Assembly (NCBI RefSeq): GCF_000214375.1
Contig: NC_015578.1
Location: 2,914,001 to 2,978,000, forward strand
Direction: 5' to 3'
DNA from: Treponema primitia ZAS-2
GTDB lineage: Bacteria; Spirochaetota; Spirochaetia; Treponematales; Breznakiellaceae
DNA: 64,000 nucleotides
The notes under the pieces were generated by a model. It did not search any database and had not been told where the DNA came from. It saw only the letters and a program-made list of their open reading frames with translations. Positions 38,925-54,131 of this stretch are shown here, piece by piece; positions within the stretch are counted from its first letter, which is position 1, and each line of letters starts with the position of its first letter. The translations under genes and the position numbers were made by a program.

Positions 38925-40661
38925 ATGCGTATATCAATAGCTCAAATCAATTCTACCATCGGGGACTTTTCCGGCAACCGGGAAAAAATCCTAGGCTTTA
39001 CAAAAAAAGCTCTGGAGGAACATTCGGACCTGATCCTGTTTCCGGAGTTGGCGGTTTGCGGGTACCCCCCCATGGATCTCCTGGATCAGGACAGTTTTGT
39101 GGAAATGAACATCCGTTCCATCCATATACTTCAGCGGGAGCTGCCCCCTGGCATAGCCGTGGGGATAGGCTATGTGAACCGGAATCCCTATGCCGGGGGC
39201 AAGTCCCTGGTCAATGAATACGGGGTGCTGCTGGACGGGAAAATAGCCTTTAGCCAGCTCAAGACCCTGCTCCCCACCTACGACGTGTTTGACGAGGCAC
39301 GGAATTTTGAGCCCTGTCGGGAATGGTCCGCCTTTGAGTACAAAGGGGAGCGAATCGGCATTGCCATTTGCGAGGATGTGTGGCGGGAAACCAGTATCCC
39401 GGGGACCCACTATATCCGGGACCCCGTGGGGGAACTGCTGGACCAGGGCATCAGCCTGCTCTGCGTCCCCTCGGCCTCCCCCTACATGGCGGGAAAACTG
39501 AAGGTCCGCCAGGCCCTGGCTGAACGGATCGCCATCCGGGGCAATATCCCCTTTGTCTACATTAACTCCGTAGGGGCCAACGACTCCATCCTCTTTGACG
39601 GCCGCTCCTTCATCATAGCCCCCACGAAAGATGCCTCCAGGGATGCCTCCCGGAGAAACTACCCAGTGCAGGTCCTGGCCAAAGGCTTTGAGGAAGACCT
39701 GGTAAGCTGGGAAACCGGCACCTCCCTGCAAAACCAAATGCCCGATTTAACCGGGGATGACCCCTTCAAGGTGGGCCTTACCCGGTACGAACTGGACATG
39801 CTGGAGGAAGCCCTTGTAATGGGCATCCGGGATTACATGGACAAGTGCGGCTTCAAGCGGGCTCACCTGGGGCTTTCAGGGGGCATAGACTCCGCCCTGG
39901 TAGCCTACCTGGGGGTCAGGGCAGCGGGCAAGGACAATATCGCCTGTTTCAGCATGCCCTCCCGGTATTCCTCCCAGGGTTCCAAGGACGACGCCAAGGA
40001 GCTGGCGGAAAACCTGGGCTGCCGCTACGAAGTTCTCCCCATAGAAACGGTGTTCACCAGTTTTCTTGGCACCTTGGAGGGGGTTTTTGAAAAACGCCCC
40101 TTTGATATCGCCGAAGAAAACCTCCAGGCCCGTATCCGGGGTACCCTGATGATGGCCTTTTCCAACAAATTCGATTCCATGCTCCTCACCACGGGCAATA
40201 AAAGCGAGCTTGCCATGGGCTACTGCACCCTCTACGGGGACACCAACGGTTCCGTAGGCCCCATCGGCGACCTTTTCAAGACCGAGGTCTTTGCCCTCTG
40301 CAAGCGCATCAACGAGCGGTCCCTTGAGGCGGGAGGCAAGCCCATCATCCCCGAGGCGATCATCGACAAGCCCCCCTCAGCGGAACTGCGGCCCAACCAA
40401 AAGGACCAGGACAGCCTCCCCCCCTACGAAGTGCTGGACGAGATCCTCAAGCTCTACCTGTTCCAGAACCTCTCCAAGGACGAGATCGTCAAGCGGGGCT
40501 GGGATGAGGAACTGGCAGGCCGGATCATCGGCGCCGTGGCCAAGGCGGAGTTCAAGCGCCGCCAGGCCCCGCCGGTACTCAAGGTAAGCCCCCGGGCCTT
40601 CGGCATGGGACGGCGTATGCCCATTGCGCGGCGGGTATACGAGATTGGGGAGGGGAACTGA
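38925..40661 (+). CDS. nadE: Glutamine-dependent NAD+ synthetase
   Basis: The 578-residue enzyme has an N-terminal nitrilase-type glutaminase domain with Glu in LFPELAVCGYPP (~42), Lys in FSQLKTLLPTYDVFDE (~111) and Cys in GIAICEDVW (~148). The C-terminal synthetase domain has the P-loop HLGLSGGIDSALVAYLGV and GTLMMAFSNKFDSMLLTTGNKSELAMGY. Ammonia from glutamine converts deamido-NAD to NAD+. The last ~75 codons are duplicated, with deletions, at 47068-47274. The gene is followed by an inverted repeat and the first surface-protein cassette. Confidence 0.96.
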   Translation: MRISIAQINSTIGDFSGNREKILGFTKKALEEHSDLILFPELAVCGYPPMDLLDQDSFVEMNIRSIHILQRELPPGIAVGIGYVNRNPYAGGKSLVNEYGVLLDGKIAFSQLKTLLPTYDVFDEARNFEPCREWSAFEYKGERIGIAICEDVWRETSIPGTHYIRDPVGELLDQGISLLCVPSASPYMAGKLKVRQALAERIAIRGNIPFVYINSVGANDSILFDGRSFIIAPTKDASRDASRRNYPVQVLAKGFEEDLVSWETGTSLQNQMPDLTGDDPFKVGLTRYELDMLEEALVMGIRDYMDKCGFKRAHLGLSGGIDSALVAYLGVRAAGKDNIACFSMPSRYSSQGSKDDAKELAENLGCRYEVLPIETVFTSFLGTLEGVFEKRPFDIAEENLQARIRGTLMMAFSNKFDSMLLTTGNKSELAMGYCTLYGDTNGSVGPIGDLFKTEVFALCKRINERSLEAGGKPIIPEAIIDKPPSAELRPNQKDQDSLPPYEVLDEILKLYLFQNLSKDEIVKRGWDEELAGRIIGAVAKAEFKRRQAPPVLKVSPRAFGMGRRMPIARRVYEIGEGN

Positions 40662-40685
40662 GGGGGGATCGCGGAATTGAAGAAT

Positions 40686-40815
40686 GAAGATTTACCACAG
40701 AGATAGCAGAAGAGGCACAGAGGACACAGAGGGAAGAAAGGAATAAGCGCACCCCCCTCCCCTCTTCCTCCGTGAGCTCTGCGTTCTTCCTCTGCGCCTC
40801 TGCGGTAAATCTTCC
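40686..40815. repeat. Large imperfect inverted repeat of the TTTACC(A/G)CAGAG type
   Basis: The left arm (GAAGATTTACCACAGAG..GCAGAAGAGGCACAGAGG) is matched in reverse complement by the right arm (CCTCTGCGCCTCTGCGGTAAATCTTC). The arms are ~50 nt with mismatches around a pyrimidine-rich centre. Such CACAGAGG-rich palindromes are dispersed in many bacterial genomes. RNA from it could fold into one long stem after nadE. Confidence 0.8.
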
Positions 40816-40975
40816 ATTTTACCAGTCTACTAAAAAAGCGCAGTAAAAAAACCTCTTTTTTACTAAACCTCCTATTCCTCCTTTCTCGCTCCCTGTGGTA
40901 TACTCAAACCAGATTACCGTCCAAGGGCTAATAGAAAAAACCAGGAGTATAATAAAATTGTATAATTCTTTGTAC

Positions 40976-41005
40976 TGTAACGAATTACCCCCCCCCCCCC
41001 CCCCC
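40976..41005 (+). promoter_or_regulatory. Poly-C promoter of surface cassette 1 (C18)
   Basis: The word TTGTACTGTAACGAATTA precedes 18 consecutive C (40988-41005). Aligned with the second cassette, TGTAAC (40976-40981) corresponds to its TATAAT -10, so the tract covers the presumed transcription start. Tract length is likely to vary by slippage. The OMP gene starts 73 nt downstream. Confidence 0.65.
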
Positions 41006-41077
41006 ATTTTTTATGCAATAAAAAAGTTTGCCCTAGCAAGTCCGATTCTCCCGGTGTTTCCGAAGGGGGAAACGGTC

Positions 41078-42145
41078 ATGCGTAAAATCCTATTGGGGTG
41101 CCTTATCCTGTTGAATACCGGCCTTTTCTGTTTTGCCCAGGAAGCGGTGCCCTTCGATGAGGCCCTGCAGGATACCCTGCATTATTTAAGCGCCAAGATA
41201 CCGGACAATTCCACTGTCGTAGCCCTAAACGTCCAGTCCGATTCTCCCGACCTGGCTGAATATGTGATCGACGAAATACACGCCTATACGGTGGATACGG
41301 ATCTCTTTACCATGGTGGACCCCCAGCATTTAGCCCCCCCATTATCCGGAGAACTGAGCGATGAAATGGTTCAAACCATTGGCGAAAAACTAGGCGCCCA
41401 GACCATACTGTCCGTGACCATTTCCTATACCGATAGTTTTTACCGGCTCCGGGTCCAGGCCATTGATGTTCAGTCCGCCAAGATTCAGGGCAGCCGGACT
41501 GTAACTATCGTCCCAAACCAACTCTTGGATTCCTTAACAGGGAAGAGCCATAATACTGCCACTCCGGGGGAATTAAAGCTATTGTATCTGGGGGTACGGG
41601 GGGGCCTTTCCACCCATTTCTATACCCTGGATAAATCCTATTGGGGAGACGGCCGGGAAGCTTCGGTTTCCTGGTCCGGGGATTTTGCAGCCCAGCTATC
41701 GTACCAGTTTTTTACCCACTTTGCCCTGCAAACGGAAGCAGTTTTTATGGGGGATATGCTGGTTACAAAAAATGGCACCCTGGCATCCTTCAGCAACGCT
41801 ACGGTGATGCTCCCCCTGTTGGCAAAATTCACCTTCTATCCCCGGCTCTTTTCCTTCTCCGTCTTTGGGGGAGCTTATTGTTCTATTCCCCTGCAAGCAA
41901 TGACCTTTCGTATTGCAGACAGTGACTACGAATATAATTACTCGGCGCCCTTTGGGTTGATCCTCGGCGGGACCATGGGCATAAAACTGGGGCCCGGAAC
42001 CCTGTTTGGGGATATCCGGTTTGCTACGGACCTGCAGGCCACCGGGCTTTCCGGCCCCTGGGGCGACCTGGATGTATATAAACGAAATATGCTTTTTTAT
42101 TCCCTTGGTTATGAACTGGGGTTTATCAAGCGGGGAAGGAAATAG
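41078..42145 (+). CDS. Outer-membrane protein: CsgG/LpoB-like N-terminal domain plus small beta-barrel
   Basis: The 355-residue protein begins with a signal peptide (MRKILLGCLILLNTGLFCFAQ). Residues ~25-150 resemble the lipoprotein-type domain common in treponemes (IPDNSTVVALNVQSDSPDLAEYVIDEI, GELSDEMVQTIGEKLGAQTILSVTI). The C-terminal ~180 residues alternate hydrophobic and aromatic strands (LYLGVRGGLSTHFYTL ... YSLGYELGFIKRG), consistent with an eight-strand OMP barrel. ATG at 41078 follows GGGGG. It lies 4 nt before the first lipoprotein gene and directly downstream of the C18 tract. It may anchor or present the lipoproteins; function is otherwise unknown. Confidence 0.7.
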   Translation: MRKILLGCLILLNTGLFCFAQEAVPFDEALQDTLHYLSAKIPDNSTVVALNVQSDSPDLAEYVIDEIHAYTVDTDLFTMVDPQHLAPPLSGELSDEMVQTIGEKLGAQTILSVTISYTDSFYRLRVQAIDVQSAKIQGSRTVTIVPNQLLDSLTGKSHNTATPGELKLLYLGVRGGLSTHFYTLDKSYWGDGREASVSWSGDFAAQLSYQFFTHFALQTEAVFMGDMLVTKNGTLASFSNATVMLPLLAKFTFYPRLFSFSVFGGAYCSIPLQAMTFRIADSDYEYNYSAPFGLILGGTMGIKLGPGTLFGDIRFATDLQATGLSGPWGDLDVYKRNMLFYSLGYELGFIKRGRK

Positions 42146-42148
42146 ATT

Positions 42149-43771
42149 ATGAAAATGAAATTGAATCAATTACTGCCGTTCGTTGTACTGCCGGCACTAT
42201 TGTTGCTGCATTCCTGCATAGGCACGCTTGACAGTACGGATCCCAAACACCTGTTGGACCAGAGCGGCCCCCAGGCGCCAAGCTTGGCGGCCATTAGCAT
42301 TTCCAAGATGCCGACTAAGCTCCAATACGCTTTAAACGAAGCTTTTGACCGATCCGGCCTTGAGGTCACCGGCGCCTATACCGACAGCACTACACAGGCC
42401 GAAACCATAGAGGATTCCGATATTACCGGCTTTGATTCTACCAGCCCGGGAACTAAAACCATTACGGTTACTAAAGGCGGAAAAACCGCCACCTTTACGC
42501 TTATCGTCAGCCCCCAGGCGGCGGATCCTGTTCTGGTGGCTATTACCATTTCTACACTCCCGGCAAAGTTGCAGTACAACATTGGTGAGCTTTTTGTCTG
42601 GACCGGCCTTACCGTAACCGGGACCTACAGCGACGGCAGAACCCAGGCCGAGACCATAGAAGATTCCGATATTACCGGCTTTGATTCTACCAGCCCGGGG
42701 ACTAAAACCATTACGGTTACTAAGGGCGAAAAAACCGCCACCTTTGCCGTTATCGTCAGCCCTCAGGCGGCAAATCCTGTTCTGGCGGCTATTACCATTT
42801 CTACACTCCCGGCAAAGCTGCAGTACAACATTGGTGAATCTTTTGCCCGGACCGGCCTTACCGTAAGCGGGATCTATACCAACGGCAGCACCCTGGCCGA
42901 AACCATAGAGGATGCCGATATTACCGGCTTTGATTCTACCAGCCCGGGGACTAAAACCATTACGGTTACTAAGGGCGAAAAAACCGCCACCTTTGCAGTT
43001 ATTGTCAGCCCCCAGGCGGGATCTCCCGTCCTGGCAGCTATTACCATTTCCAAACTCCCGGCAAAGCTGCAGTACAACATTGGCGAAGCTTTTGTCCGGA
43101 CCGGCCTTACCGTTATCGGTACCTATACCGACGGCAGGACACAAACCGAAACCATAGAGGATGCCGATATTACCGGCTTTGATTCCACAAGCGCCGGAAC
43201 AAAAATGATTACCATTACTAAAGGCGGAAAAACTGCTATCTTCGCGGTTACCATTAACACGCCTATACCGGCAGCAACTTTGGCGGCTATTACCATTTCC
43301 TCCCTGCCTAGGATATTACGGTACAATATTGGCGATCCTTTTAACCCAGACGGCCTTATCGTTACCGGTACCTATACCGGTGGCATCACAAAGACCGAAG
43401 CCATAAACAGCTTGAATATTACCGGCTTCGATTCCACAAGCCCCGGAACAAAACCGATTACCATTACTAAAGGCGGAAAAACCGCCGTGTTTGCAGTTAT
43501 CGTGAACCCCAATACCGGGTCCGGAGGTATCACCCTGATACCCCCGCCTGCAACAACAGAAATAAGCATCACTAAATTTTCGGCAGACCAACTGGAAGCA
43601 TCCTTTGGTTTTAACAACTATCAATGGTTTGTGGATGGCCATGCTGCCGCCTTAGTCGACCTTAGCAGTGGTGACAGAACCCTTACCTTAAGCCCGGGGA
43701 AACATCAAGTATGGATAACAGCCTATAAACAGGGCGTACCCTATTCAGCGGCAATTACCATTGAACTATAG
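42149..43771 (+). CDS. Surface lipoprotein with five Big_3-type Ig-like repeats (cassette 1, gene A)
   Basis: The 540-residue protein has a lipobox LLLLHSC (Cys ~23). Five repeats of 83 residues follow at an exact 249-bp DNA period: each contains KLQYNIGE.F..TGL.V.GTY.DG and DITGFDSTSPGTK.ITVTKG..TA.FAVIV, the pattern of bacterial Ig-like group 3 domains. The last ~85 residues form a separate domain (YQWFVDG ... KHQVWITAYKQGVPYSAAITIEL), shared with the lipoprotein at 47721. Repeats 1-3 are almost identical in DNA, so copy number may change by recombination. It is likely exported to the cell surface for adhesion or binding. Confidence 0.85.
   Translation: MKMKLNQLLPFVVLPALLLLHSCIGTLDSTDPKHLLDQSGPQAPSLAAISISKMPTKLQYALNEAFDRSGLEVTGAYTDSTTQAETIEDSDITGFDSTSPGTKTITVTKGGKTATFTLIVSPQAADPVLVAITISTLPAKLQYNIGELFVWTGLTVTGTYSDGRTQAETIEDSDITGFDSTSPGTKTITVTKGEKTATFAVIVSPQAANPVLAAITISTLPAKLQYNIGESFARTGLTVSGIYTNGSTLAETIEDADITGFDSTSPGTKTITVTKGEKTATFAVIVSPQAGSPVLAAITISKLPAKLQYNIGEAFVRTGLTVIGTYTDGRTQTETIEDADITGFDSTSAGTKMITITKGGKTAIFAVTINTPIPAATLAAITISSLPRILRYNIGDPFNPDGLIVTGTYTGGITKTEAINSLNITGFDSTSPGTKPITITKGGKTAVFAVIVNPNTGSGGITLIPPPATTEISITKFSADQLEASFGFNNYQWFVDGHAAALVDLSSGDRTLTLSPGKHQVWITAYKQGVPYSAAITIEL
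42290..43507 (+). repeat. Five 249-bp direct repeats coding Ig-like units
   Basis: The word GATATTACCGGCTTTGATTC recurs at 42419, 42668, 42917 and 43166, and as AATATTACCGGCTTCG at 43415, each 249 bp apart. The first three copies are nearly identical over long stretches. The fifth is most diverged. Confidence 0.95.
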
Positions 43772-43780
43772 GAGAAAAAA

Positions 43781-46700
43781 ATGAAACCGAATACAGCGCA
43801 CCCAACAGGATTATTCCTTATCACAGTCTTTTTTATAAGCACTCTCTACATGGGCTGTAACAACCCCATACAGGGAACATACAACAGCCCCGGGCCTGAC
43901 AAGGGGATAGTGCTGGTAAACATCGGCGCTAACCAGCGCACCTTAATGCCCATTGCCCTGGAGACTTACAAATTTATCTTTGTGTCTGCGGGGAAGGCGG
44001 ATGTTATTGCGTATGCCAATGGCACGTCCCTGCAGATTGAACTGGAGACCGGCGCCTGGGACCTTACGGTAGTTGGGCTGGCGGAAGGGGCACCTGACGA
44101 GGAAGAACCATTGCTCCGGGGTGAAAAAACTCGTATTAATGTAACTGCGGGCGGTATAAGCGCTGTAACAATAAACCTAACGCCCCAGATCCTTGAAGGA
44201 GAGGGGACTTTACAGTATACAATTAGTTTTCCGGATACCGTAACTGAGGCATCACTGAAACTTTCCCCACTGACAAACAAGGCTAGTGATCCACCTATTG
44301 ATCCGATTAATTTATTATCCGGCGCCAATTCTTCCGAGGGTTTTTATACAATAGAAGGAACCCAGGATTTTGCCACAGGGTATTACTATCTAACCATTGA
44401 CCTCTATGACGGCGCTATCGGGGCCTCAGGCTGGACCACAAAAACTGAGGTGGTACATATTTACAAGGACCGGAAAACAAGCACTGGGGATGAGTATAAT
44501 TTTACCGGGGATGATTTTACCTCAACCGAAGCCGCTAGCGTGAATGACGACAGAAGTCTTAAAGATGTGTTAAATTACATTAGGGCAGCCGGTGGTACGG
44601 ATTTTACGATAATTATGAAGAAGGACGAATCGGGATTTGAACCTTACGACCTGGATTATTCTTTTGCAGGTACAAGTAAGCGTATAACCATACGGGGGAA
44701 CGGGAATACCATAACCCTTGCGGATGAGCCCCATGATGGTGCAATCTTTTCCTTAAGTACTCCCAACATTACACTGATTTTAAAAAATATTATCCTTGAA
44801 GGCCGGGGGACAGAAAAAGATAATAACCAGGCCCTCATTTACATTTCCAACGGTAATCTTATTGTGGAAAATGGAATTATTACGGGTAATAAAAACTGCG
44901 GCGGGAGTGGCGGCGGCGTACGTGTAGGCGGCGGAACCTTTCTTCTGCGGGGCGGGCAAATCAGCGGCAATACAGCCTCCACCGTTTCAGGCCCTTCCTG
45001 TGGCGGCGGGGTGTATGTAGATAGCAGCGGCAGTTTCATCATGCAAGGTGGGCAAATCAGCGGCAATACAGCCTCCGCCAATACAGGTCTTTCCTATGGT
45101 GGTGGGCTGTATGTAGCTAGCAGCAATGGTTTCATCCTGCGGGGTGGGCAAATCAGCGACAACACAACCTCCGCCGTTTCAGGCCCTTCCTCTGGCGGCG
45201 GGGTATATGTAGCCAACGGCAACTTCTCCATGCAGGGCGGACAAATCAATGGTAACAAAGTCTCCTCCGATTTAGCTGATTCTCACGGTGGCGGGGTATA
45301 TGTAGCCAACGGATCCTTTGTCATAGTCAATGGCATAATCAGTGAAAACGAAATCGTCAGTTCAAGTACTACTTCTTCCGGCGGCGGAGTGCATGTAGGT
45401 AGCGCTTTCTCCATGCAGGGCGGACAAATCAGCGACAACATAATCTCCGCCGATACAAATACCTTCGGTGGCGGAGTATTCGTAGGCAACGGATCCTTTG
45501 CCATAGTCGATGGCATAATCAGTGGCAACACAGCCTCCGCCAATACAGGTTCTTCCGACGGCGGCGGGGTGTATGTAGCCAACGGTAATTTCAATATGCC
45601 GGGTGGACAAATCAATAAAAACGAAGCCTCCTCCACTTCAGGTCAGTCCCGCGGCGGTGGGGTATTTGTAGATAGCTCCGGTGAGTTCACTATGCGGGGC
45701 GGAGAGATCAGTGGCAACGAAGCCTCCTCCAATTCAAATACTTCCGACGGCGGGGGGGTGTATGTACAAGGCGGCATTTTTATCATACAGGGCGGAGAGA
45801 TCAATACCAACAAAGCCTCCTCCACCGCCAGTCCAGCCTTCGGCGGTGGGGTATATGTAGGTAGCGGTGAGTTCACCATGCGAGGCGGACAGATCAATGG
45901 AAACACAGCTTCCAGTTCAGGAAGTACTTCCCACGGTGGTGGAGTATATTTAGAAAGCGGTGATTTCACTATACATAGTGGAAAGATCAATACTAACAAT
46001 GCCTTGGCATATTCAAGTTCTTCCTCCGGCGGCGGGGTGCATGTAGGTTTCACCGGTGATTTCACCATGCTGAACGGGGAAATCAGCGGCAACCAAGCCT
46101 TGGCCGATTCAGGCCCCCTCGGCGGAGGGGTATTCGTAAACGGCGGAGCCTTTCGTATGGAAGATGGAATAATCAGCGGCAATACAGTCTCCGCCAATTC
46201 AAATTCCTCCGGTGGCGGAGTATATGCAAATTCTTTCGCGGAAAGTATTACTATGCAGGGTGGGGAAATCAGCGACAATACAGTTCGCGCAAATTCAGGT
46301 TATTCCAACGGTGGCGGAATATTTGTAATATCTTCCTCTGATTTCACCATGCTGGGCGGACAAATCAATGGCAACACAGCCTCCGCTGATTCAGGCAATT
46401 CCTATGGCGGCGGGGTGTATACAAATTCTAACACACCCTTCAACATGGTGTATGGAATAATCAACGGTAACACAGCATCCTTCGGCGGCGGGGTGCATCT
46501 AGACTACAACAGCACTTTCGCCATGCAAAATGGAGTAATCAGCGGCAACAGTGCGTCCCATCGCGGCGGCGGGGTGTCTTCATTATCCGGAACTTTCACT
46601 ATGCAGGACGGGCAAATTAAAAGCAACACGGCGCCCATCGGTAGCGGAGTGTATGTTTCGGCCTACGCAACCTTCATCATGAAAGATGCGCGGATCGATT

Positions 46701-46996
46701 TTTCTAATGCAGTTTGTTTAGATTTCGACAGTGCAATTCCTGCCTACTTCTCAAGTATTACTACAAGGGACTTCACCGACATCGATCCTATTGCCGTGAT
46801 TGATCTTGCTGTGTATCCCGAGGCTGATTATCATTATTGGGAAAATAAAGAAATACTGAAACAAGTCCCAGGATACGGAGAGATTCCAAATGACCGGTTC
46901 ATCCTGGGAAATTTTGTTTCAGCATACCCCGATTACACTAAGACACCCATTGTAGAATACAAAATACATACCGATGGAACACTGGTAACGGAATAG
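43781..46996 (+). CDS. Giant lipoprotein with ~20 GGGVYV beta-helix repeats (cassette 1, gene B)
   Basis: The 1071-residue protein has a lipobox-like LYMGC (Cys ~27). Residues ~40-245 form an N-terminal module (RTLMPIALETYKFIF, AWDLTVVGLAE, GYYYLTIDLYDG, TEVVHIYKD) shared with the protein at 49577. Residues ~300-400 lead into about 20 units of ~31-34 residues with consensus GGGVYV..G.FTM.GGQISGNTAS, as in polymorphic outer-membrane/right-handed beta-helix proteins. Units 1-19 have GGG, the last GSG. The C-terminal ~100 residues are not repetitive. It has no obvious autotransporter barrel, so lipid anchoring is the likely attachment. GGAG precedes the ATG. Confidence 0.85.
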   Translation: MKPNTAHPTGLFLITVFFISTLYMGCNNPIQGTYNSPGPDKGIVLVNIGANQRTLMPIALETYKFIFVSAGKADVIAYANGTSLQIELETGAWDLTVVGLAEGAPDEEEPLLRGEKTRINVTAGGISAVTINLTPQILEGEGTLQYTISFPDTVTEASLKLSPLTNKASDPPIDPINLLSGANSSEGFYTIEGTQDFATGYYYLTIDLYDGAIGASGWTTKTEVVHIYKDRKTSTGDEYNFTGDDFTSTEAASVNDDRSLKDVLNYIRAAGGTDFTIIMKKDESGFEPYDLDYSFAGTSKRITIRGNGNTITLADEPHDGAIFSLSTPNITLILKNIILEGRGTEKDNNQALIYISNGNLIVENGIITGNKNCGGSGGGVRVGGGTFLLRGGQISGNTASTVSGPSCGGGVYVDSSGSFIMQGGQISGNTASANTGLSYGGGLYVASSNGFILRGGQISDNTTSAVSGPSSGGGVYVANGNFSMQGGQINGNKVSSDLADSHGGGVYVANGSFVIVNGIISENEIVSSSTTSSGGGVHVGSAFSMQGGQISDNIISADTNTFGGGVFVGNGSFAIVDGIISGNTASANTGSSDGGGVYVANGNFNMPGGQINKNEASSTSGQSRGGGVFVDSSGEFTMRGGEISGNEASSNSNTSDGGGVYVQGGIFIIQGGEINTNKASSTASPAFGGGVYVGSGEFTMRGGQINGNTASSSGSTSHGGGVYLESGDFTIHSGKINTNNALAYSSSSSGGGVHVGFTGDFTMLNGEISGNQALADSGPLGGGVFVNGGAFRMEDGIISGNTVSANSNSSGGGVYANSFAESITMQGGEISDNTVRANSGYSNGGGIFVISSSDFTMLGGQINGNTASADSGNSYGGGVYTNSNTPFNMVYGIINGNTASFGGGVHLDYNSTFAMQNGVISGNSASHRGGGVSSLSGTFTMQDGQIKSNTAPIGSGVYVSAYATFIMKDARIDFSNAVCLDFDSAIPAYFSSITTRDFTDIDPIAVIDLAVYPEADYHYWENKEILKQVPGYGEIPNDRFILGNFVSAYPDYTKTPIVEYKIHTDGTLVTE
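44900..46700 (+). repeat. ~20 tandem 93-105-bp coding repeats (GGGVYV beta-helix units)
   Basis: Units contain GGCGGCGGGGT(A/G)TATGTA and CAAATCAGCGGCAATACAGCCTCC-like words at ~100-bp intervals, with many third-position differences. They are protein repeats and not a CRISPR array, because they continue one open frame of 1071 codons. Confidence 0.9.
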
Positions 46997-47006
46997 TAAA
47001 ATTAAC

Positions 47007-47067
47007 ACCCCCGCTGCTTGCATGCGGCGGGGCTGGTTAAAAAAAGGTGACTGTCACCACTTTTTCG
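47007..47067 (+). terminator. Two hairpins after cassette 1
   Basis: CCCCGCTGC with GCGGCGGGG (47011-47034) is followed by GGTGACTGTCACC (47047-47059) and ACTTTTTC. The second, with its T-run, is terminator-like. The nadE-derived fragment begins directly after it at 47068. Confidence 0.6.
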
Positions 47068-47274
47068 GTGCTGGACGAGATCCTCAAGCTCTACCTATTC
47101 CAGAACCTCTCCAAGGACGAGATCGTCAAGCGGGCTGGGATGAGGAACTTGGCCAAGGCGGAATTCAAGCGCCGCCAGGCCCCGCCGGTGCTCAAGGTAA
47201 GCCCCCGGGCCTTCGGCATGGGCCGGCGTATGCCCATAGCGCGGCGGGTGTACGAGATTGGGGAGGGGAATTAG
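47068..47274 (+). pseudogene. nadE: Duplicated, internally deleted 3' end of nadE
   Basis: The sequence from GTGCTGGACGAGATCC to GAGATTGGGGAGGGGAA matches 40431-40659 nearly base for base. Differences include loss of one G in the AAGCGGGGCTGGG region and an in-frame-restoring loss of ~23 nt, so VKRGWDEELAGRIIGAVAKAEF becomes VKRAGMRNLAKAEF. No start codon with a ribosome-binding site or upstream nadE sequence is present. It is a remnant of a segmental duplication marking the start of cassette 2. Confidence 0.92.
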
Positions 47275-47554
47275 GGGGAAGATGAATAACCACTAAGGAT
47301 ACAAGAGGGGGGAAAGTAACAAGCGCACCGTTCTCAATTTCATTCGCATATTGTCGCAAAATGTGAATGATCGGAATGGCAGTCAATTTAGGGTTAATAT
47401 CAGCAGCGGTAAATCTTCCCCAAAATATTTTACCTTTTTTCATAAAATTCTACCCGTTTTTCCCTTCTCTGTGGTATACTCCTACACAAGCTGTTATCCA
47501 ACGGCTGGCAGGGGAACAAGCAGGACAATGATAGATTTGTGTAATTCCTTGTAT

Positions 47555-47582
47555 TATAATGAATTAGCACCCCCCCCCCCCC
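47555..47582 (+). promoter_or_regulatory. Poly-C promoter of surface cassette 2 (C13)
   Basis: TATAAT (47555-47560) is followed by GAATTAGCA and 13 C (47570-47582). The preceding TTGTGTAATTCCTTGTAT aligns with TTGTATAATTCTTTGTAC at cassette 1. The tract begins 9 nt after the -10, i.e. in the first transcribed bases. A convincing -35 is missing. Confidence 0.7.
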
Positions 47583-47637
47583 ATTTATGGGCGTGTAAAT
47601 ACTTCTTTCTTAGACAGTTTATATCATCATTTAACGG

Positions 47638-47660
47638 TACCTGGAAACAGGTATTTTTTT
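47638..47660 (+). terminator. Attenuator-like terminator in the cassette 2 leader
   Basis: TACCTG, GAAA loop, CAGGTA, then seven T (47654-47660). It lies between the poly-C promoter and the start of the lipoprotein gene at 47721, so it could stop transcripts before the gene unless relieved. Confidence 0.75.
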
Positions 47661-47720
47661 GTCTCTTTTATCCCAGATGCCGGATCGAATATTCCGGATT
47701 AACTATATAAGGAGAAACGA

Positions 47721-49562
47721 ATGAAGAAAAAGAGAATTTTGGAAGCGAAAAACGCCTTTTTGCCGGCCCTTGGGTTGTTGGTATTAGGCGGCCTTCTGGT
47801 TCTGGCCGGGTGTGATTCCTCAACGAATCCTACCCCAACCCCACTAATCGGCTTCTATACGGTCACCGTAGTGCAATCCACCGGTGGAACCATTTCGGCA
47901 AGCCCCAATACCGCCGTGGCGGCGGGAACCACCGTTACCGTCACGGTGACCCCTGATACAGAGTATGTGTTTACCGAGGGAAGTCTGGCATACAATGGCA
48001 TACCAATAGCTGCCGGGGTCTACACGTTTCCCATGCCCGCAGCAAATGTAACGGTTACCGGGTCATTCACCCACACTTATACGATCACTCCAAGCGCCGG
48101 CATTCAACACGGAAGTATTTCGGCGGATTCCCCTGCGAAAGTGGGAGATACCGTTACCATCACGGTGACCCCTGATCCGGGGTATGTGTTGGGAACCCTG
48201 ACATACAACGACGGGACAGACCATACCATCACCGGGACTTCCTTTACCATGCCCGCAGCCAATGTGACCATCACCGGGACATTCATCTCTGATGGAACAC
48301 CCCTGTTTGCAGTTACCATAGCCTCCGGCATTACCAATGGAACCATTACGGCAAGCCACTCAACCGGCGTAGCAGCGACAACCACCGTTACCGTCACCGC
48401 TGCCCCTGCTACTGGGTATGAGTTGACAAGCCTGGTATACAACGATGGGACAGACCATGCCATCACCGGAACTTCCTTTACCATGCCCGCAGCCAATGTG
48501 ACAATTACCGGGACATTCAGCTTAAGTAGCGAGACCAACCACTCAGTCACCGTAGCTTCCGGCATTACCAATGGAACCATTTCGGCAAGCCCCTTCCAAG
48601 ATGTGGCAGCAGGAACCACTGTTACCGTCACCGTTACCCCTGCTACTAAGTATGAGTTGACGCCGGGATCCCTGAAATACAACGACGGGACAGACCATAC
48701 CATCACCGGTAATTCCTTTACCATGCCCGCAGCCAATGTGACAATCACCGGGGCATTCCGCTTAATTAGCGGGACCAACACCTATTCAGTCATCCTGCTC
48801 CAAGTCACCGGCGGAACCATTTCGGCAAGCCCCAATACCGCCGTGACAGAAGGTACATCTGTTACCGTTACTGCGAACCCTTATTCGGGATATGAGTTGA
48901 AATCGGGAACCCTGAAATACAACAATGGGACGACAGCCACTCTCATCACCGATAATTCCTTTACCATGCCCGCAGCCGATGTGACGATTACCGGGGAATT
49001 CAGCTTAATTCCCATACCCGTCCAATCAATAAGCCTCCCTGCAAACATTGAGCTTATCCCCACCGGTACATTGCAGCTAAACGCTATCGTATCCCCGGAT
49101 ACCGCCACCAACAAAACCCTTACCTGGACATCCAGTGACAGCAGCAAAGCTACGGTTACCACCAACGGGTTGGTGAAAGGCGTAAGCGTAGGTACAGCAA
49201 TAATCACCGCCACAGCCGCAGACGGCAGCGGAAAAAAGGCTGAGTGCACAGTAACGGTTAAAGACGGCAAGCAGTTGTCCTTTACCTTTGAAGGGTTTAA
49301 TAACCAAACCATTGATCTCACCAAAAGTACAAATAACGATATTTCCCTAAGCAATACCAGCCAAAGTCCGCTCCAAATAACCTTAGTGGGGGACTGGAAT
49401 TCTATAGGCTGGTACGTGGATGGGGAGCAGCGCGGGTCTGGCAGCAGCTCTTTTGTTTTCGATCTTTACAACTCTGCCGTCGGAGAGCATACGGTTACCG
49501 TGGTTGTGTATAAGGGCATTGTTCCGTATTCAAAGGAACTGAAATTCCGGGTAGTTAAATAA
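47721..49562 (+). CDS. Surface lipoprotein with five InlB-B-type repeats and a Big_2 domain (cassette 2, gene A)
   Basis: The 613-residue protein has a lipobox LLVLAGC (Cys ~31). Five repeats of ~70-78 residues follow (T.GTISASP...AGTTVTVTVTP..GYEL..L.YNDGT, ending SFTMPAANVTITGTF), the divergent InlB B-repeat pattern. After them comes one Big_2-type Ig-like domain (SISLPANIELIPTGTLQLNAIVSP ... ATVTTNGLVKGVSVGTAIITATA). The final ~90 residues (IGWYVDG ... GEHTVTVVVYKGIVPYSKELKF) match the C-terminal domain of the protein at 42149. So the body differs but the end is the same. AAGGAG precedes the ATG. Confidence 0.87.
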   Translation: MKKKRILEAKNAFLPALGLLVLGGLLVLAGCDSSTNPTPTPLIGFYTVTVVQSTGGTISASPNTAVAAGTTVTVTVTPDTEYVFTEGSLAYNGIPIAAGVYTFPMPAANVTVTGSFTHTYTITPSAGIQHGSISADSPAKVGDTVTITVTPDPGYVLGTLTYNDGTDHTITGTSFTMPAANVTITGTFISDGTPLFAVTIASGITNGTITASHSTGVAATTTVTVTAAPATGYELTSLVYNDGTDHAITGTSFTMPAANVTITGTFSLSSETNHSVTVASGITNGTISASPFQDVAAGTTVTVTVTPATKYELTPGSLKYNDGTDHTITGNSFTMPAANVTITGAFRLISGTNTYSVILLQVTGGTISASPNTAVTEGTSVTVTANPYSGYELKSGTLKYNNGTTATLITDNSFTMPAADVTITGEFSLIPIPVQSISLPANIELIPTGTLQLNAIVSPDTATNKTLTWTSSDSSKATVTTNGLVKGVSVGTAIITATAADGSGKKAECTVTVKDGKQLSFTFEGFNNQTIDLTKSTNNDISLSNTSQSPLQITLVGDWNSIGWYVDGEQRGSGSSSFVFDLYNSAVGEHTVTVVVYKGIVPYSKELKFRVVK

Positions 49563-49576
49563 GGAGGAATGGAAAC

Positions 49577-51778
49577 ATGAAAAGAAACAATTCACTATTT
49601 GCGGTAGTTTCCGCAGTAAGCCTTTGGGGTCTCCTCTTCCTTGGGGGATGCTCCAATCTATTAACCCCTTCCCAACAGGATACCAGCACAGGGAAGGTGA
49701 CCATCAGCGTGATCGGGGAGGATGCGGCAGCCCGTACCCTCTACCCGGATGCTCAATTTTCAAAATATGAACTCATCTTCAAGCAGGGCGGCGAAGTGAA
49801 AAGAATAGAAACCCTGCTGAACGGGAAAGCATCTGTGGTCATTACGGGCCTTGCGGCTGAGGTTTGGGATATCACGGCTGTAGGCTATGTAGAAATACTG
49901 GTCGAAAGGGAAGGTAAAAAAGAATTCGCCGCTGCCGAGGGAACACAGACAGTGGACATCGCTACAAATTCATCCATCTCCATTCCCATAAGCGCAACCC
50001 AGGAAGGCCCCGACGGGTATTTATCCTGGAACATAAGCTTTCCGGAAGAAAAGGTTGATAGCGCCTATTTGCAGCTCACTCTGATGGACGGCTCTTGGGG
50101 GGGGACGGATATATACCTGAATCTTATTTCAGCGCCAGAGAACCGTTCCGGCCAGACGTCGCTCCCCCCGGGGTATTATCTTGCCCAGGTCCGCCTGGAA
50201 AATGGATACCAGGAAGCCGGCCATACCGAGGTGATCCATATCTATTCCAATATGGAAACCAGGGCAGACTATACCTACACCGCCGGGGACTTCGCCGATT
50301 TTATCACCCTAAGCGGTACGGCGACTGTTAAGCTTAACAATGTAACACCCGATTTCACACAAATATCTCTCTTTGCCAATGAAAACCGTAACGGCAATCC
50401 ACTGGGCTCTAGCCGGATCAATCCTGATGGAACATGGTCCATAAACTTGCTGCCCTTTGCATCATCAACCACCCTGTACGCTTGGGTAAGTGCAAACATC
50501 TACACCATCGGCGGCCCCAGCATTTCCCAATGGAAATACGTCGGACCAATAGACAATATTTACAATGCAAACAAAACCATTCCTCTGGGCAATATTGATA
50601 TCAATACCATCACCCTGGGCGGCACAGCGAATGTAACGGTTACTGGCGCCACGCTCCAGTATTTACAAGTAACCGCCTACAGTCAAAGCGGCAACTATAG
50701 TTCCTGGTTAGGGAGCGGCCCTGTGGATAGTTCGGGGCACTGGTCCATAAACGTCTCCCCCCTGAATGCTTCCACAGAGGTACGCTTTGACATAAGTGTA
50801 AATGCCCTTGGAGGCGGTTATTTCGAGCGGGAAACCGAAATTACAAGATCCGTCTCTACTACCAGTATACTCGACATTGATTTAGGTTCCATTCCGCTGA
50901 ACCTTATCACCCTGAGCGGCACGGCGAATGTCACCTATAACGGTTTTCCGCCAGCCAATGCGCAGCTATCTCTCTATGCCAATGAAAACCGTAATGGCGA
51001 TCAGTTGGGCAGGGGCCAGATCAATACTTCTACCAGAACCTGGTCCATACTCATGGAAGCCCAGTCTTCACCAACCACCCTGTATCCCTGGGTATATGTA
51101 AGCAGCGGCGGCAGCAGCCCTGGGCAGGAGAAATACATCGGAACACCCATCACTGGCGGTAATGTAACCCAAGACGGTTTTACCCTGGGCAACATTGATA
51201 TTAGTTCTGTCACCCTGAGCGGTACCATATCAGGCACAGTGGACGGCAAGTCCCCTGACGGAGCTACGGTGTTGGCTTTTGCTGCGGATAATACCTTTAT
51301 AGGAGAAGCCGGGGTTCAAGCAAGCGGCAACTGGTCCATGTCGGTCGAAGCCATCAATACTACCGTACATTTCAGCGTTTTGATAGAGCAAGGTTATTCT
51401 CAGGTCCTCATACCCCTGGACTCAAGTTACAACAGGACGATTACTGTCAGCAGCGGTGCTTCCGGTATCAACATGAACGGATTGTCCTTTACAACCAAAT
51501 CATTGACCGTTACGGTTCCGGTGATCGGGATGGTAATTGTTACGAATTCCAAAATCCTCAGCTCCGATATTAGCCAAGAAGCGCCTTATTCGAAAATAAT
51601 CGCCATGGCCCAAGGAGTGAATTCCTTCGCACTGAGGGTTCCCCAGGATACATCTTCGGTTTACTTCACTGTTATGACTGAAAGCAATGATGTTTATATG
51701 AGCAGTTCAGCTGTTAATTATGCTGCCAGTATAACCCTGAACCTTTCGCAGATGGAAAAACTGTCCATGCCATGGTAA
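49577..51778 (+). CDS. Surface lipoprotein with shared N-terminal module and four ~100-residue beta repeats (cassette 2, gene B)
   Basis: The 733-residue protein has a lipobox LLFLGGC (Cys ~25). Residues ~35-235 (RTLYPDAQFSKYELIF, VWDITAVGYVE, LSWNISFPEEKVDSAYLQL, GYYLAQVRLENG, TEVIHIYSN) correspond to the N-terminal module of the protein at 43781. Four repeats then follow with I(T/S)LSGTANVT, LSLYANENRNG..LG, INPDGTWSI and KYIG..LGNIDI patterns. The last ~110 residues are unique. GGAGG lies 9 nt before the ATG at 49577 and 14 nt after the previous stop, so the two genes are one operon ended by a strong terminator. Confidence 0.87.
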   Translation: MKRNNSLFAVVSAVSLWGLLFLGGCSNLLTPSQQDTSTGKVTISVIGEDAAARTLYPDAQFSKYELIFKQGGEVKRIETLLNGKASVVITGLAAEVWDITAVGYVEILVEREGKKEFAAAEGTQTVDIATNSSISIPISATQEGPDGYLSWNISFPEEKVDSAYLQLTLMDGSWGGTDIYLNLISAPENRSGQTSLPPGYYLAQVRLENGYQEAGHTEVIHIYSNMETRADYTYTAGDFADFITLSGTATVKLNNVTPDFTQISLFANENRNGNPLGSSRINPDGTWSINLLPFASSTTLYAWVSANIYTIGGPSISQWKYVGPIDNIYNANKTIPLGNIDINTITLGGTANVTVTGATLQYLQVTAYSQSGNYSSWLGSGPVDSSGHWSINVSPLNASTEVRFDISVNALGGGYFERETEITRSVSTTSILDIDLGSIPLNLITLSGTANVTYNGFPPANAQLSLYANENRNGDQLGRGQINTSTRTWSILMEAQSSPTTLYPWVYVSSGGSSPGQEKYIGTPITGGNVTQDGFTLGNIDISSVTLSGTISGTVDGKSPDGATVLAFAADNTFIGEAGVQASGNWSMSVEAINTTVHFSVLIEQGYSQVLIPLDSSYNRTITVSSGASGINMNGLSFTTKSLTVTVPVIGMVIVTNSKILSSDISQEAPYSKIIAMAQGVNSFALRVPQDTSSVYFTVMTESNDVYMSSSAVNYAASITLNLSQMEKLSMPW

Positions 51779-51805
51779 AGTAACAAGGTTTAGTTAAGAA
51801 ACCGC

Positions 51806-51838
51806 AGCCCGGGGGCTTCCGCTTCCCGGGCTTTTTTT
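51806..51838 (+). terminator. Strong intrinsic terminator after cassette 2
   Basis: AGCCCGGG (51806-51813) pairs with CCCGGGCT (51825-51832), an inner GC/GC extends the stem, and seven T follow. Confidence 0.92.
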
Positions 51839-51859
51839 ACGCCTATCCCCGCCCCGCCC

Positions 51860-51888
51860 TTTTCAATTCCCCCGCTTTCAGCCATACT
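51860..51888 (+). promoter_or_regulatory. Promoter of the PhnP-like gene, leaderless arrangement
   Basis: TTTTCA (51860-51865), a 17-bp spacer and CATACT (51883-51888), then 6 nt before the ATG at 51895. No ribosome-binding site precedes the start. Confidence 0.5.
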
Positions 51889-51894
51889 AAGCCC

Positions 51895-52719
51895 ATGAAG
51901 CTTACGGTCCTCGGTTCCGGCACCTCCCATGGTATACCCGTCATCGGCTGTTCCTGCCCGGTTTGCAGCTCCACAGATCCCCGGGACAAGCGTATGCGGG
52001 CATCCCTGTTCATTCAGGGGGACCGAGGAGAGCAGGTGATCATCGACACGGGGCCGGAATTCCGACTCCAGGCCCTGAGGGCGGGGATCAGCGCCTTGGA
52101 CGCGGTGTTCCTGACCCATGCCCACGCGGATCATGTCCACGGGCTGGATGATGTGCGGCCCCTGAGTTATGAACGGGAAATCCCAATTTACGGGAACTCC
52201 CAGACCATGAAAGAAATTGAGGAGCGTTTCATCTACGCCTTCATCAATACCCAGCGGGGAGGCGGAAAACCCCGGATAAGCCTGAACCCGGTGAGCAGTC
52301 CGGTACGCATAGGTGCCCTTACCCTGACCCCGGTTCCGGTTAAGCACGGAACCCTGGACATCCTGGGCTGGATGATACAGGAAGCTGGAACCCTTGGTCC
52401 CGGGGAGAAAAGCCCCTTCGCGGTGTACCTCACCGATACCAGCGCCATCCCCGCCGAATCCCTGGATCTGATACAGGGGACGGAGATTCTTATCATTGAC
52501 GGGCTGCGGGAACGGGTCCACGAAACCCACTTCAGTTTTGAGCAGGCCCTGGATGCTGCAAGGGCAATAGGCGCCCACCAGACTTACCTTACCCATATCT
52601 GTCACAGCCATTCACATGAAGAAATCGAGGAATACTGCAATCGTTACCAGGAAACACACAGCCTGGGGGCACAGTTTATTGCCCCCGGCTTCGACGGGCT
52701 GGAGCTTTTGCTCCCCTAG
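51895..52719 (+). CDS. Metallo-beta-lactamase-fold hydrolase, PhnP-like
   Basis: The 274-residue protein has the metal-binding motif THAHADHVHG, a second His site (VKHGTLDILG), Asp in YLTDTSAIP and a final HICHSHSH. The N-terminal CxCxxC cluster (GCSCPVCSS, ~18-26) is the extra zinc/structural site seen in PhnP-type phosphodiesterases. Likely a cyclic phosphodiesterase or housekeeping nuclease-like hydrolase; no phosphonate genes are nearby to support a PhnP role. Its transcript appears leaderless. Confidence 0.85.
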   Translation: MKLTVLGSGTSHGIPVIGCSCPVCSSTDPRDKRMRASLFIQGDRGEQVIIDTGPEFRLQALRAGISALDAVFLTHAHADHVHGLDDVRPLSYEREIPIYGNSQTMKEIEERFIYAFINTQRGGGKPRISLNPVSSPVRIGALTLTPVPVKHGTLDILGWMIQEAGTLGPGEKSPFAVYLTDTSAIPAESLDLIQGTEILIIDGLRERVHETHFSFEQALDAARAIGAHQTYLTHICHSHSHEEIEEYCNRYQETHSLGAQFIAPGFDGLELLLP

Positions 52720-52729
52720 AAAGCGGACC

Positions 52730-52758
52730 TTGCAGGGAAGGGCTTTCCTGCGCATAAT
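52730..52758 (+). promoter_or_regulatory. Hexokinase promoter with palindromic spacer
   Basis: TTGCAG (52730-52735), a 17-bp spacer and CATAAT (52753-52758). The -35 and spacer contain an inverted repeat (GCAGGGAA / TTTCCTGC), a possible operator. Confidence 0.5.
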
Positions 52759-52775
52759 TAGAACGGAGGTACATT

Positions 52776-54131
52776 GTGAGTTCATCCTTTAAGCCCGGAG
52801 AATTGGCGGATTTTGCCCGTTACCATGGGTTTCATTACGATATTATTGATCCCGTGCAGTTGGTGCAGGAAATCCGCGTTGACCTGGAGCGGGGTCTGCG
52901 GGGACAGAGTTCCAGTCTCCCCATGATCCCTACCTATATAAGCCCTATCGCCAGGGTACCTGCGGGCCGGACCGTCCTGGCCCTGGACGCCGGGGGCACC
53001 AATCTCCGGGCAGCCCGGGTCCGTTTTGACGAAAGCGGCAAAGCCATCGCCGAAGGTACCCGGAAGGCCCCTATGCCGGGCACCAAAGGCCAGGTAACGG
53101 CGGACCAGTTTTTTGACCAAATCGCCGAAATCGCCGCCCCCCTACTGGACAAATCTGGGAACATCGAAGGCATCGGCTTTTGTTTTTCCTACCCCATGGA
53201 AGTCACCAAAGAAGCAGACGGGATACTCCTGGCTTTCAGTAAGGAAGTGGACGCCCCGGCAGTGATCGGCAAATCCATAGGCCAAGGGCTGCGGGACGCC
53301 TTGGCCCGGTGCAAGGTCAAGGCTCCGGAGAAGATCATCCTCCTCAATGATACGGTGTCCACCCTGCTCTGCGGCCTGGTAGATATCCCCGTTGACGGGA
53401 GGCGGGAAGGCCCGGACAAGTACGGCATACCCGGGGGGCCCATGATCGGCTTTATCCTGGGAACCGGGTTCAACACTGCCTACCCGGAGAAGAGCATCCC
53501 AAAAATAGGCTTTGAATCCGAAACGGCGCCTCAGATCGTGGTCTGCGAGACCGGCGGGTTTATGCCCCGCTACCTGGGCTACCTGGACAAGGAGTACGAT
53601 AACACAACAAAAAACCCCGGCACCTACGCCCAGGAAAAGGCCTCCGCCGGAGCCTACCTGGGTCCCCTCAGCTTCCACATATTAAAACAGGCTGTCCGTG
53701 AGGGGGTCTTGAGCTTTAATCGCTCCGATGAATTCCTCGCCTGGCCTACCCTGCAAACCAAGGACCTAAATTCATTCCTCCGCGCCCCCCTGGCCATGGA
53801 GGGCCCCATAGGGGAACTCTTCGGCAAGGATGAACGGGATGCCCTGGCTTCCTTTGTCTACCTGTGTTCCATTGTAACCGAACGAGGGGCACTGCTCTCC
53901 GCCGCCATCCTCGCCGCCACGGTGGAACGGATGGATGCGGGTTACGATCCCTTTGCGCCGATCCGTATCGCCGTGGAAGGGACCACCTATGTGCGGTACA
54001 AGGGTATGCGGGAAGCCCTGGAATCCTACCTGCATGTCATGCTGAATGCCGGCAAGCCCCGATCCTACGTGATATCCCCGGTGGAACAGGCCTCCCTCTT
54101 CGGCGCCGCTGTGGCTGCATTAACCGAGTAA
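52776..54131 (+). CDS. Eukaryote-like hexokinase
   Basis: The 451-residue enzyme has the hexokinase type of ASKHA fold: phosphate-1 loop LALDAGGTNLRAARV, sugar-binding FCFSYPME, catalytic Asp in LLNDTVSTLL, and phosphate-2 GFILGTGFNTAY, plus the adenosine motif near VAVEGTTY. It is about the length of single-unit eukaryotic hexokinases rather than bacterial glucokinases; treponemes are known for this type. GTG at 52776 is the start, with GGAGGT 6 nt before it. It phosphorylates glucose or other hexoses on entry to glycolysis. Confidence 0.92.
   Translation: MSSSFKPGELADFARYHGFHYDIIDPVQLVQEIRVDLERGLRGQSSSLPMIPTYISPIARVPAGRTVLALDAGGTNLRAARVRFDESGKAIAEGTRKAPMPGTKGQVTADQFFDQIAEIAAPLLDKSGNIEGIGFCFSYPMEVTKEADGILLAFSKEVDAPAVIGKSIGQGLRDALARCKVKAPEKIILLNDTVSTLLCGLVDIPVDGRREGPDKYGIPGGPMIGFILGTGFNTAYPEKSIPKIGFESETAPQIVVCETGGFMPRYLGYLDKEYDNTTKNPGTYAQEKASAGAYLGPLSFHILKQAVREGVLSFNRSDEFLAWPTLQTKDLNSFLRAPLAMEGPIGELFGKDERDALASFVYLCSIVTERGALLSAAILAATVERMDAGYDPFAPIRIAVEGTTYVRYKGMREALESYLHVMLNAGKPRSYVISPVEQASLFGAAVAALTE

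Follow-up and report, generated by a model that had tools for sequence, protein, structure and literature searches.

What does a run of 18 cytosines do ahead of a putative surface-protein operon in Treponema primitia ZAS-2? Simple-repeat phase variation is mostly described in pathogens, where it acts in promoters or inside the switched gene. A preliminary description of this DNA had the tract at 40988-41005, 73 nt before the gene and just downstream of a -10-like element, so that it would lie in the first transcribed bases and slippage might also act through reiterative initiation. A direct read of the window (the whole stretch of DNA that was analysed, 64 kb, genome positions 2914001-2978000) gives an uninterrupted C18 at exactly 40988-41005 on the + strand, and the distance is also right, with the ATG of the downstream gene at 41078 and 72 bases between the two. 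No other homopolymer in the window is as long; next comes a C13 at 47570-47582, and all others are at most 9. At 27% C, a C18 would turn up somewhere in 64 kb with a probability of ~4e-6. Homopolymer lengths in assemblies are uncertain and not reliable.

The proposed site of action fares less well. The -10-like element (TACTGT/TGTAAC) is actually the right half of a 25-nt palindrome, TAATTCTTTGTACTGTAACGAATTA, and a consensus scan calls no promoter there; a promoter scan of 40600-52800 was uninformative, finding 12 sites vs 14.5 in shuffles. From its sequence the real promoter of cassette 1 is probably CTGTGGTATACTC at 40893-40905. A start of transcription at the tract itself fits poorly with what lies 5' of tracts of this kind, where Shine-Dalgarno (SD) sequences, start codons and open frames are all enriched, and because of this enrichment the mRNA should normally begin 5' of the tract.

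Layout of the two cassettes

The tract belongs to the first of two cassettes, whose features are collected in Table 1. The upstream regions of the two are paralogous, with the leaders differing by synonymous changes, Tyr/Cys changes and one 3-nt insertion, and the cassette 2 leader has AGGA, 11 nt and then TTG, which matches the arrangement in cassette 1. Initiation at the cassette 1 leader may be weak, as it has a TTG where cassette 2 has an upstream ATG; leader starts made of an SD and a TTG are also found at two other loci (L236 and L284). Cassette 2 probably arose by duplication, since it is preceded by a broken duplicate of the NAD synthase gene's 3' end; this copy (47068-47278, from the gene at 38925-40661) has stretches that are 99% and 94% identical.

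Table 1. Positions of the features of cassettes 1 and 2 within the window; n is the number of C residues in the tract
Feature	Position	Strand	Remark
Promoter-like CTGTGGTATACTC (TATACT 40899-40904), cassette 1	40893..40905	+	13 nt identical to cassette 2 (47469-47481)
Shine-Dalgarno AGGAG of leader	40943..40947	+	10 nt before TTG start
Leader ORF before tract, TTG start, LYNSLYCNEL	40958..40987	+	open into tract; TTG aligned with cassette 2 TTG
25-nt palindrome TAATTCTTTGTACTGTAACGAATTA	40963..40987	+	dispersed repeat overlapping leader
C18 tract	40988..41005	+	read as six prolines in leader frame
TAA, early leader stop at n=17 or 20	41019..41021	+	four codons after tract, 59 nt short of downstream start
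TAA, leader stop at n=19, overlaps downstream start (ATGCGTAA)	41083..41085	+	stop at +5
355-aa exported protein, signal peptide MRKILLGCLILLNTGLFCFAQ, putative outer-membrane protein	41078..42145	+	family-wide homologs
Cassette 1 second gene, bacterial Ig-like (Big_3) repeats	42149..43771	+	
Cassette 1 third gene, 1071-aa repeat protein	43781..46996	+	
Promoter-like CTGTGGTATACTC of cassette 2	47469..47481	+	
Cassette 2 leader before tract (MIDLCNSLYYNELA)	47528..47569	+	ATG 47528 or TTG 47537
Cassette 2 palindrome TAATTCCTTGTATTATAATGAATTA	47542..47566	+	
C13 tract of cassette 2	47570..47582	+	sister of cassette 1 C18
TAA ending cassette 2 leader at n=13	47708..47710	+	over SD region of gene starting 47721
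Cassette 2 first gene, lipoprotein-like InlB B-repeat / Big_2 protein	47721..49562	+	
Cassette 2 second gene, 733-aa protein, Big_6 match	49577..51778	+	

The C18 tract is placed as in a contingency locus, being a long pure repeat in which unit changes give fusion, overlap or an early stop. In cassette 1 the leader is in frame with the 355-aa protein at n=18, stops at +5 of its start at n=19 and at -59 at n=17 or 20, whilst in cassette 2 the stops fall at -13 (n=13), -125 (n=14) and -21 (n=15). The arrangement of a coupled upstream ORF, in which the leader stop lies near or over the downstream start, is found in cassette 1 at n=19 (+5) and in cassette 2 at n=13 (-13). With regard to a frame switch within the coding sequence, the cassette 1 leader is in frame at n=18 and the gene has its own ATG. 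This gene also has a possible SD of its own, AGGGGG, and given this the coupling to the leader may modulate rather than switch.

The 355-aa protein, which would sit in the outer membrane, matched no family in Pfam or NCBIfam, and an AlphaFold model made without an alignment (pLDDT 38.5) gave no usable structure. Its homologs in two other genera are 33-34% identical (tblastn) and have C14 or C18 inside a leader. The homolog in G163 (34% identical, tblastn) has its C14 in the leader MIKTAYPCISCSLYF, and there the signal peptide of the protein lacks any ATG, GTG or TTG start, with the frames joining at n=12 or 15. In two congeners, G008 and G108, C18 comes after AGGAG-ATG leaders (MKNTAHVYAPLAVSLFIIFSP and MKNTIYIYTPLVVSLFIISL), and between these two the sequence 5' of the tract shows substitutions and a single 3-nt gap. 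In both cassettes the surface genes also carry large in-frame tandem repeats at 42274-43510, 44928-46627 and 47855-49049, with units of 249, ~96 and ~240 nt, that are likely a second source of variation.

Tract loci in the genome and family

The genome (4,059,867 bp, one contig) has 19 tracts of at least 10 C. Eleven tracts of at least 12 C are on the sense strand and lie at or shortly 5' of the start of a same-strand ORF, with most of the ORFs behind them having signal peptides, lipoprotein signals or surface-type domains (OmpA, Flg_new, FIVAR, LRR_5, Cadherin-like). Among related leader loci the tracts range from C7 to C29. Two far longer tracts show no leader layout; a C61 (L130, 5760-5820, genome 279759-279819) falls within an acyltransferase ORF, at its end, and a C40 (L136, 6046-6085) is on the other strand between genes.

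When this genome and its family relatives are taken together there are 41 tract loci. An SD of at least 4 bases followed by an ATG, in a frame that stays open into the tract, is found at 16 of these compared with 2.5 (sd 1.6, max 9) in dinucleotide shuffles, and if GTG and TTG starts are also allowed the figures become 24 of 41 vs 8.3; examples are AAGGAG-ATG (L139, L140) and AAAGGGGG-ATG (L132, L134). TATACT occurs 5' of the leader, 59-95 nt before the tract, in 5 of 34 tract loci vs 0.76 in shuffles.

Reading registers and downstream starts

All three frames leaving the tract were traced as far as the downstream start, for the 18 loci that have an SD-preceded start of a long ORF within ~420 nt. 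A frame that is open from the tract and has its stop at -6..+8 of the downstream start was found 16 times, in 15 of the 18 loci, with most being ATGA overlaps. Shuffles which keep the start region give 3.5 such frames (0 of 1000 reached 16) and reverse complements give 5, with open frames in total numbering 25 over the 18 loci vs 10.2 in shuffles. Ordinary starts of this genome have such a frame in 5 of 41 cases (Fisher P = 2e-7 vs the 15 of 18 tract loci), with P values here overstating independence as some of the 18 loci are paralogs.

The outcomes of the three registers are +1, -90 and +8 in L134; -187, -2 and -27 in L138; +1, in frame and -208 in L133; and -53, in frame and -178 in L132, where fusion is the sole register that reaches the gene. 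At a further set of loci (L135, L140, L225, L242) the signal peptide lacks its own start and can be read from the leader alone, in one register. These four, along with L137, have the repeat within the switched ORF and no other start. The C16 of L137 (5978-5993) is in a lipoprotein gene with cadherin-like domains, just past the signal region, and is out of frame as assembled, the frames joining at n=14 or 17. In L139 none of the three registers reaches the downstream gene, and seven more loci (L218, L220, L221, L222, L229, L232, L233) show no clear fit or have no identifiable downstream gene. Leaders with a pure tract are often in an early-stop register as assembled (e.g. L138, L243, L246, L268, L269), which is to be expected if the register is random; assembled homopolymer lengths are, however, unreliable.

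Four leaders that have lost the long pure tract (L270, L276, L284, L289) were also found, and in each the register is fixed and leads to the downstream gene. L270 has 127 codons and its stop at -13, L276 has 72 codons with a stop at +5, L284 has 84 codons after AAAGGAGGTGATT-TTG with a stop at +8, and L289 is an in-frame fusion to a lipoprotein.

The palindrome and the element after the tract

The 25-nt palindrome (TAATTCNTTRTANNNNAANGAATTA) overlaps many of the leaders. It is present in ~20-40 copies per genome in the genus, most of them with no C tract, with about 20 sites in this genome, and has paired changes at positions 4 and 22. A palindrome followed by at least 8 C recurs across genera, being found in 16 of 150 family genomes and 0 times in the reversed control. 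The two are nonetheless separable, as G163, G008 and G108 have the tract at their homologous loci with no palindrome. The palindrome was considered as a necessary cause of the tract and this was rejected, most palindromes having no tract. The conserved peptide NSLYYNEL was likewise rejected as an essential functional unit, as L238 and L240 use a different frame across the palindrome and G163, G008 and G108 do not have it. The palindrome may be a REP/RAYT-type repeat, a possibility raised by the presence of Y1_Tnp (PF01797) genes in the genome, of which there are three, one being ~0.3 kb from a palindrome copy at 2111792.

A second element, GATAGGTTTACTAGGATATA, comes after the tract at several loci and across genera, and also marks loci whose C-rich stretches have decayed. 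With at most 2 mismatches allowed, the first 16 bases of the element match 13 times in this genome and 0 times in the reversed control, with the non-chance matches all coming after a C-rich stretch. The element has a TAG in one frame and often a TAG or TAA at the end of a second.

Comparison with known systems

In T. pallidum poly-G length variation at tprL, tprE/G/J and tp0126 has been reported to affect expression, and at tprL the poly-G is part of the promoter and is not itself transcribed, the first transcribed base being the fourth one past the tract (PMC7864442). The comparison with tpr genes drawn in the preliminary description is sound in that here, as in tpr and tp0126, a homopolymer stands ahead of a surface-protein gene in a treponeme. 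It is not sound as to mechanism. The sense strand carries C here and G there, a putatively translated leader begins 5' of the tract here and, as far as sequence can tell, the tract is neither at nor 5' of the start of transcription as it would be in the promoter poly-G type.

Systems that set a reading frame are closer in some respects. In the opa and pilC type of Neisseria the length of a repeat in the coding or signal-peptide sequence sets the reading frame. For hmbR and hpuAB, poly-G within the ORF has been described (PMC3786947). The four fusion loci (L135, L140, L225, L242) work in the manner of opa and pilC, whereas at most loci here the tract is in a separate leader ORF, the stop of which overlaps the start of an intact gene. 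A short upstream ORF ahead of a coupled gene is also known from E. coli, where translation of iraD is coupled to such an ORF and regulated by CsrA, with no slippery repeat described in the available part of that account (PMC5574718). In H. pylori tlpB a G-repeat in the mRNA leader is, like the tract here, a homopolymer of length-variable type, unlike it in being untranslated and read by the small RNA RepG, and coupling between the two genes of that operon was tested and judged unlikely (PMC8295292). A literature search, made largely outside subscription papers, found phase variation described in no termite spirochete, and nothing that would be a clear precedent for stop/start overlap at the end of a slippery leader.

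Proposed mechanism and its alternatives

The reading that best joins these results, to which a probability of roughly three in four might be given, is that a short leader ORF is translated ahead of the surface-protein operon and has the C tract as its slippery part, with slipped-strand phase variation acting on translation. Transcription would start well 5' of the tract, from the promoter-like TATACT at 40899-40904, and ribosomes would load at the leader SD, start at the TTG at 40958 and read about ten codons before reading the tract as prolines. A C gained or lost in replication would then change the frame in which the ribosome exits the tract. At n=18 it would read on into the surface protein as a fusion, and at n=19 it would stop across the start codon (ATGCGTAA), allowing termination-reinitiation, with both of these registers productive; at n=17 or 20 it would stop four codons past the tract, with 59 nt still to go, and lower expression would be expected. 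We infer that the leader is translated in the cell, that slippage occurs at a useful rate and that expression is lower in the early-stop registers. The earlier idea of a slippage-prone tract controlling a surface-protein cassette is retained, given the wider pattern over loci, with its site of action moved from the start of transcription.

That earlier site of action is the basis of the first alternative, in which phase variation is transcriptional, the tract being at the promoter or in the first transcribed bases so that its length alters promoter strength or reiterative initiation. There are AT-rich, -10-like sequences before the tract, and the promoter poly-G tracts at tprL, tprE/G/J and tp0126 of T. 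pallidum are a parallel (PMC7864442), but the -10-like element belongs to a dispersed palindrome and the promoter-like TATACT is 59-95 nt 5' of the tract at five loci. SD-preceded start codons are also enriched sixfold 5' of the tract, where they would make no sense if transcription began at the tract, and this alternative is unlikely.

Control might instead be at the level of RNA, with the C-rich leader being a length-dependent target of a small RNA or a Rho-binding attenuator. Poly-C RNA is a classic ligand of Rho and such control could act together with translation of the leader; taken as the explanation it is quite improbable, as it does not predict a frame-specific overlap with the downstream start codon. 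The tract could also be a passive microsatellite, a neutral expansion of C or a passenger of the REP-like palindrome whose position has no regulatory meaning. The dispersed nature of the palindrome and the existence of some long tracts (C61, C40) with no obvious leader would be in keeping with this, but neutral repeats would not give stop/start overlap at 15 of 18 loci, nor fixed leaders that are all productive, and this reading is very improbable.

The slippery leader may extend well beyond this operon. It is suggested, tentatively and with some doubt, that one recurring module (SD, start, short leader often over the 25-nt palindrome, poly-C and the frame trap GATAGGTTTACTAGGATATA) switches the surface lipoproteins and outer-membrane-type proteins of a whole regulon in termite-gut spirochetes. 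The frame trap would stop one or two registers and hand the third to a stop that overlaps the start codon of the target, and the leader and tract may have spread as a module from gene to gene. Simple-repeat phase variation would here appear to work through a separate leader, from which ribosomes pass to an intact gene, in a layout that recurs across bacteria resembling gut symbionts of termites. If this is true, many symbiont surface proteins would switch on and off independently, and surface diversity, phage escape and attachment to host protists would become testable by counting tract lengths. Gene predictions for these surface proteins can also miss the true start or the leader.

Some loci differ in kind from the rest. 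L129 and L131 have paired ORFs of ~90 aa ahead of proteins with no Pfam match, and here the tract comes before the palindrome; L129 (C20) is in frame and L131 (C17) out of frame, with the parts upstream and downstream both conserved as coding. At L280 a leader of the kind described above, with interruptions in its C-rich stretch, stands ahead of what by eye appears to be an antitoxin and PIN-domain toxin pair and not a surface protein.
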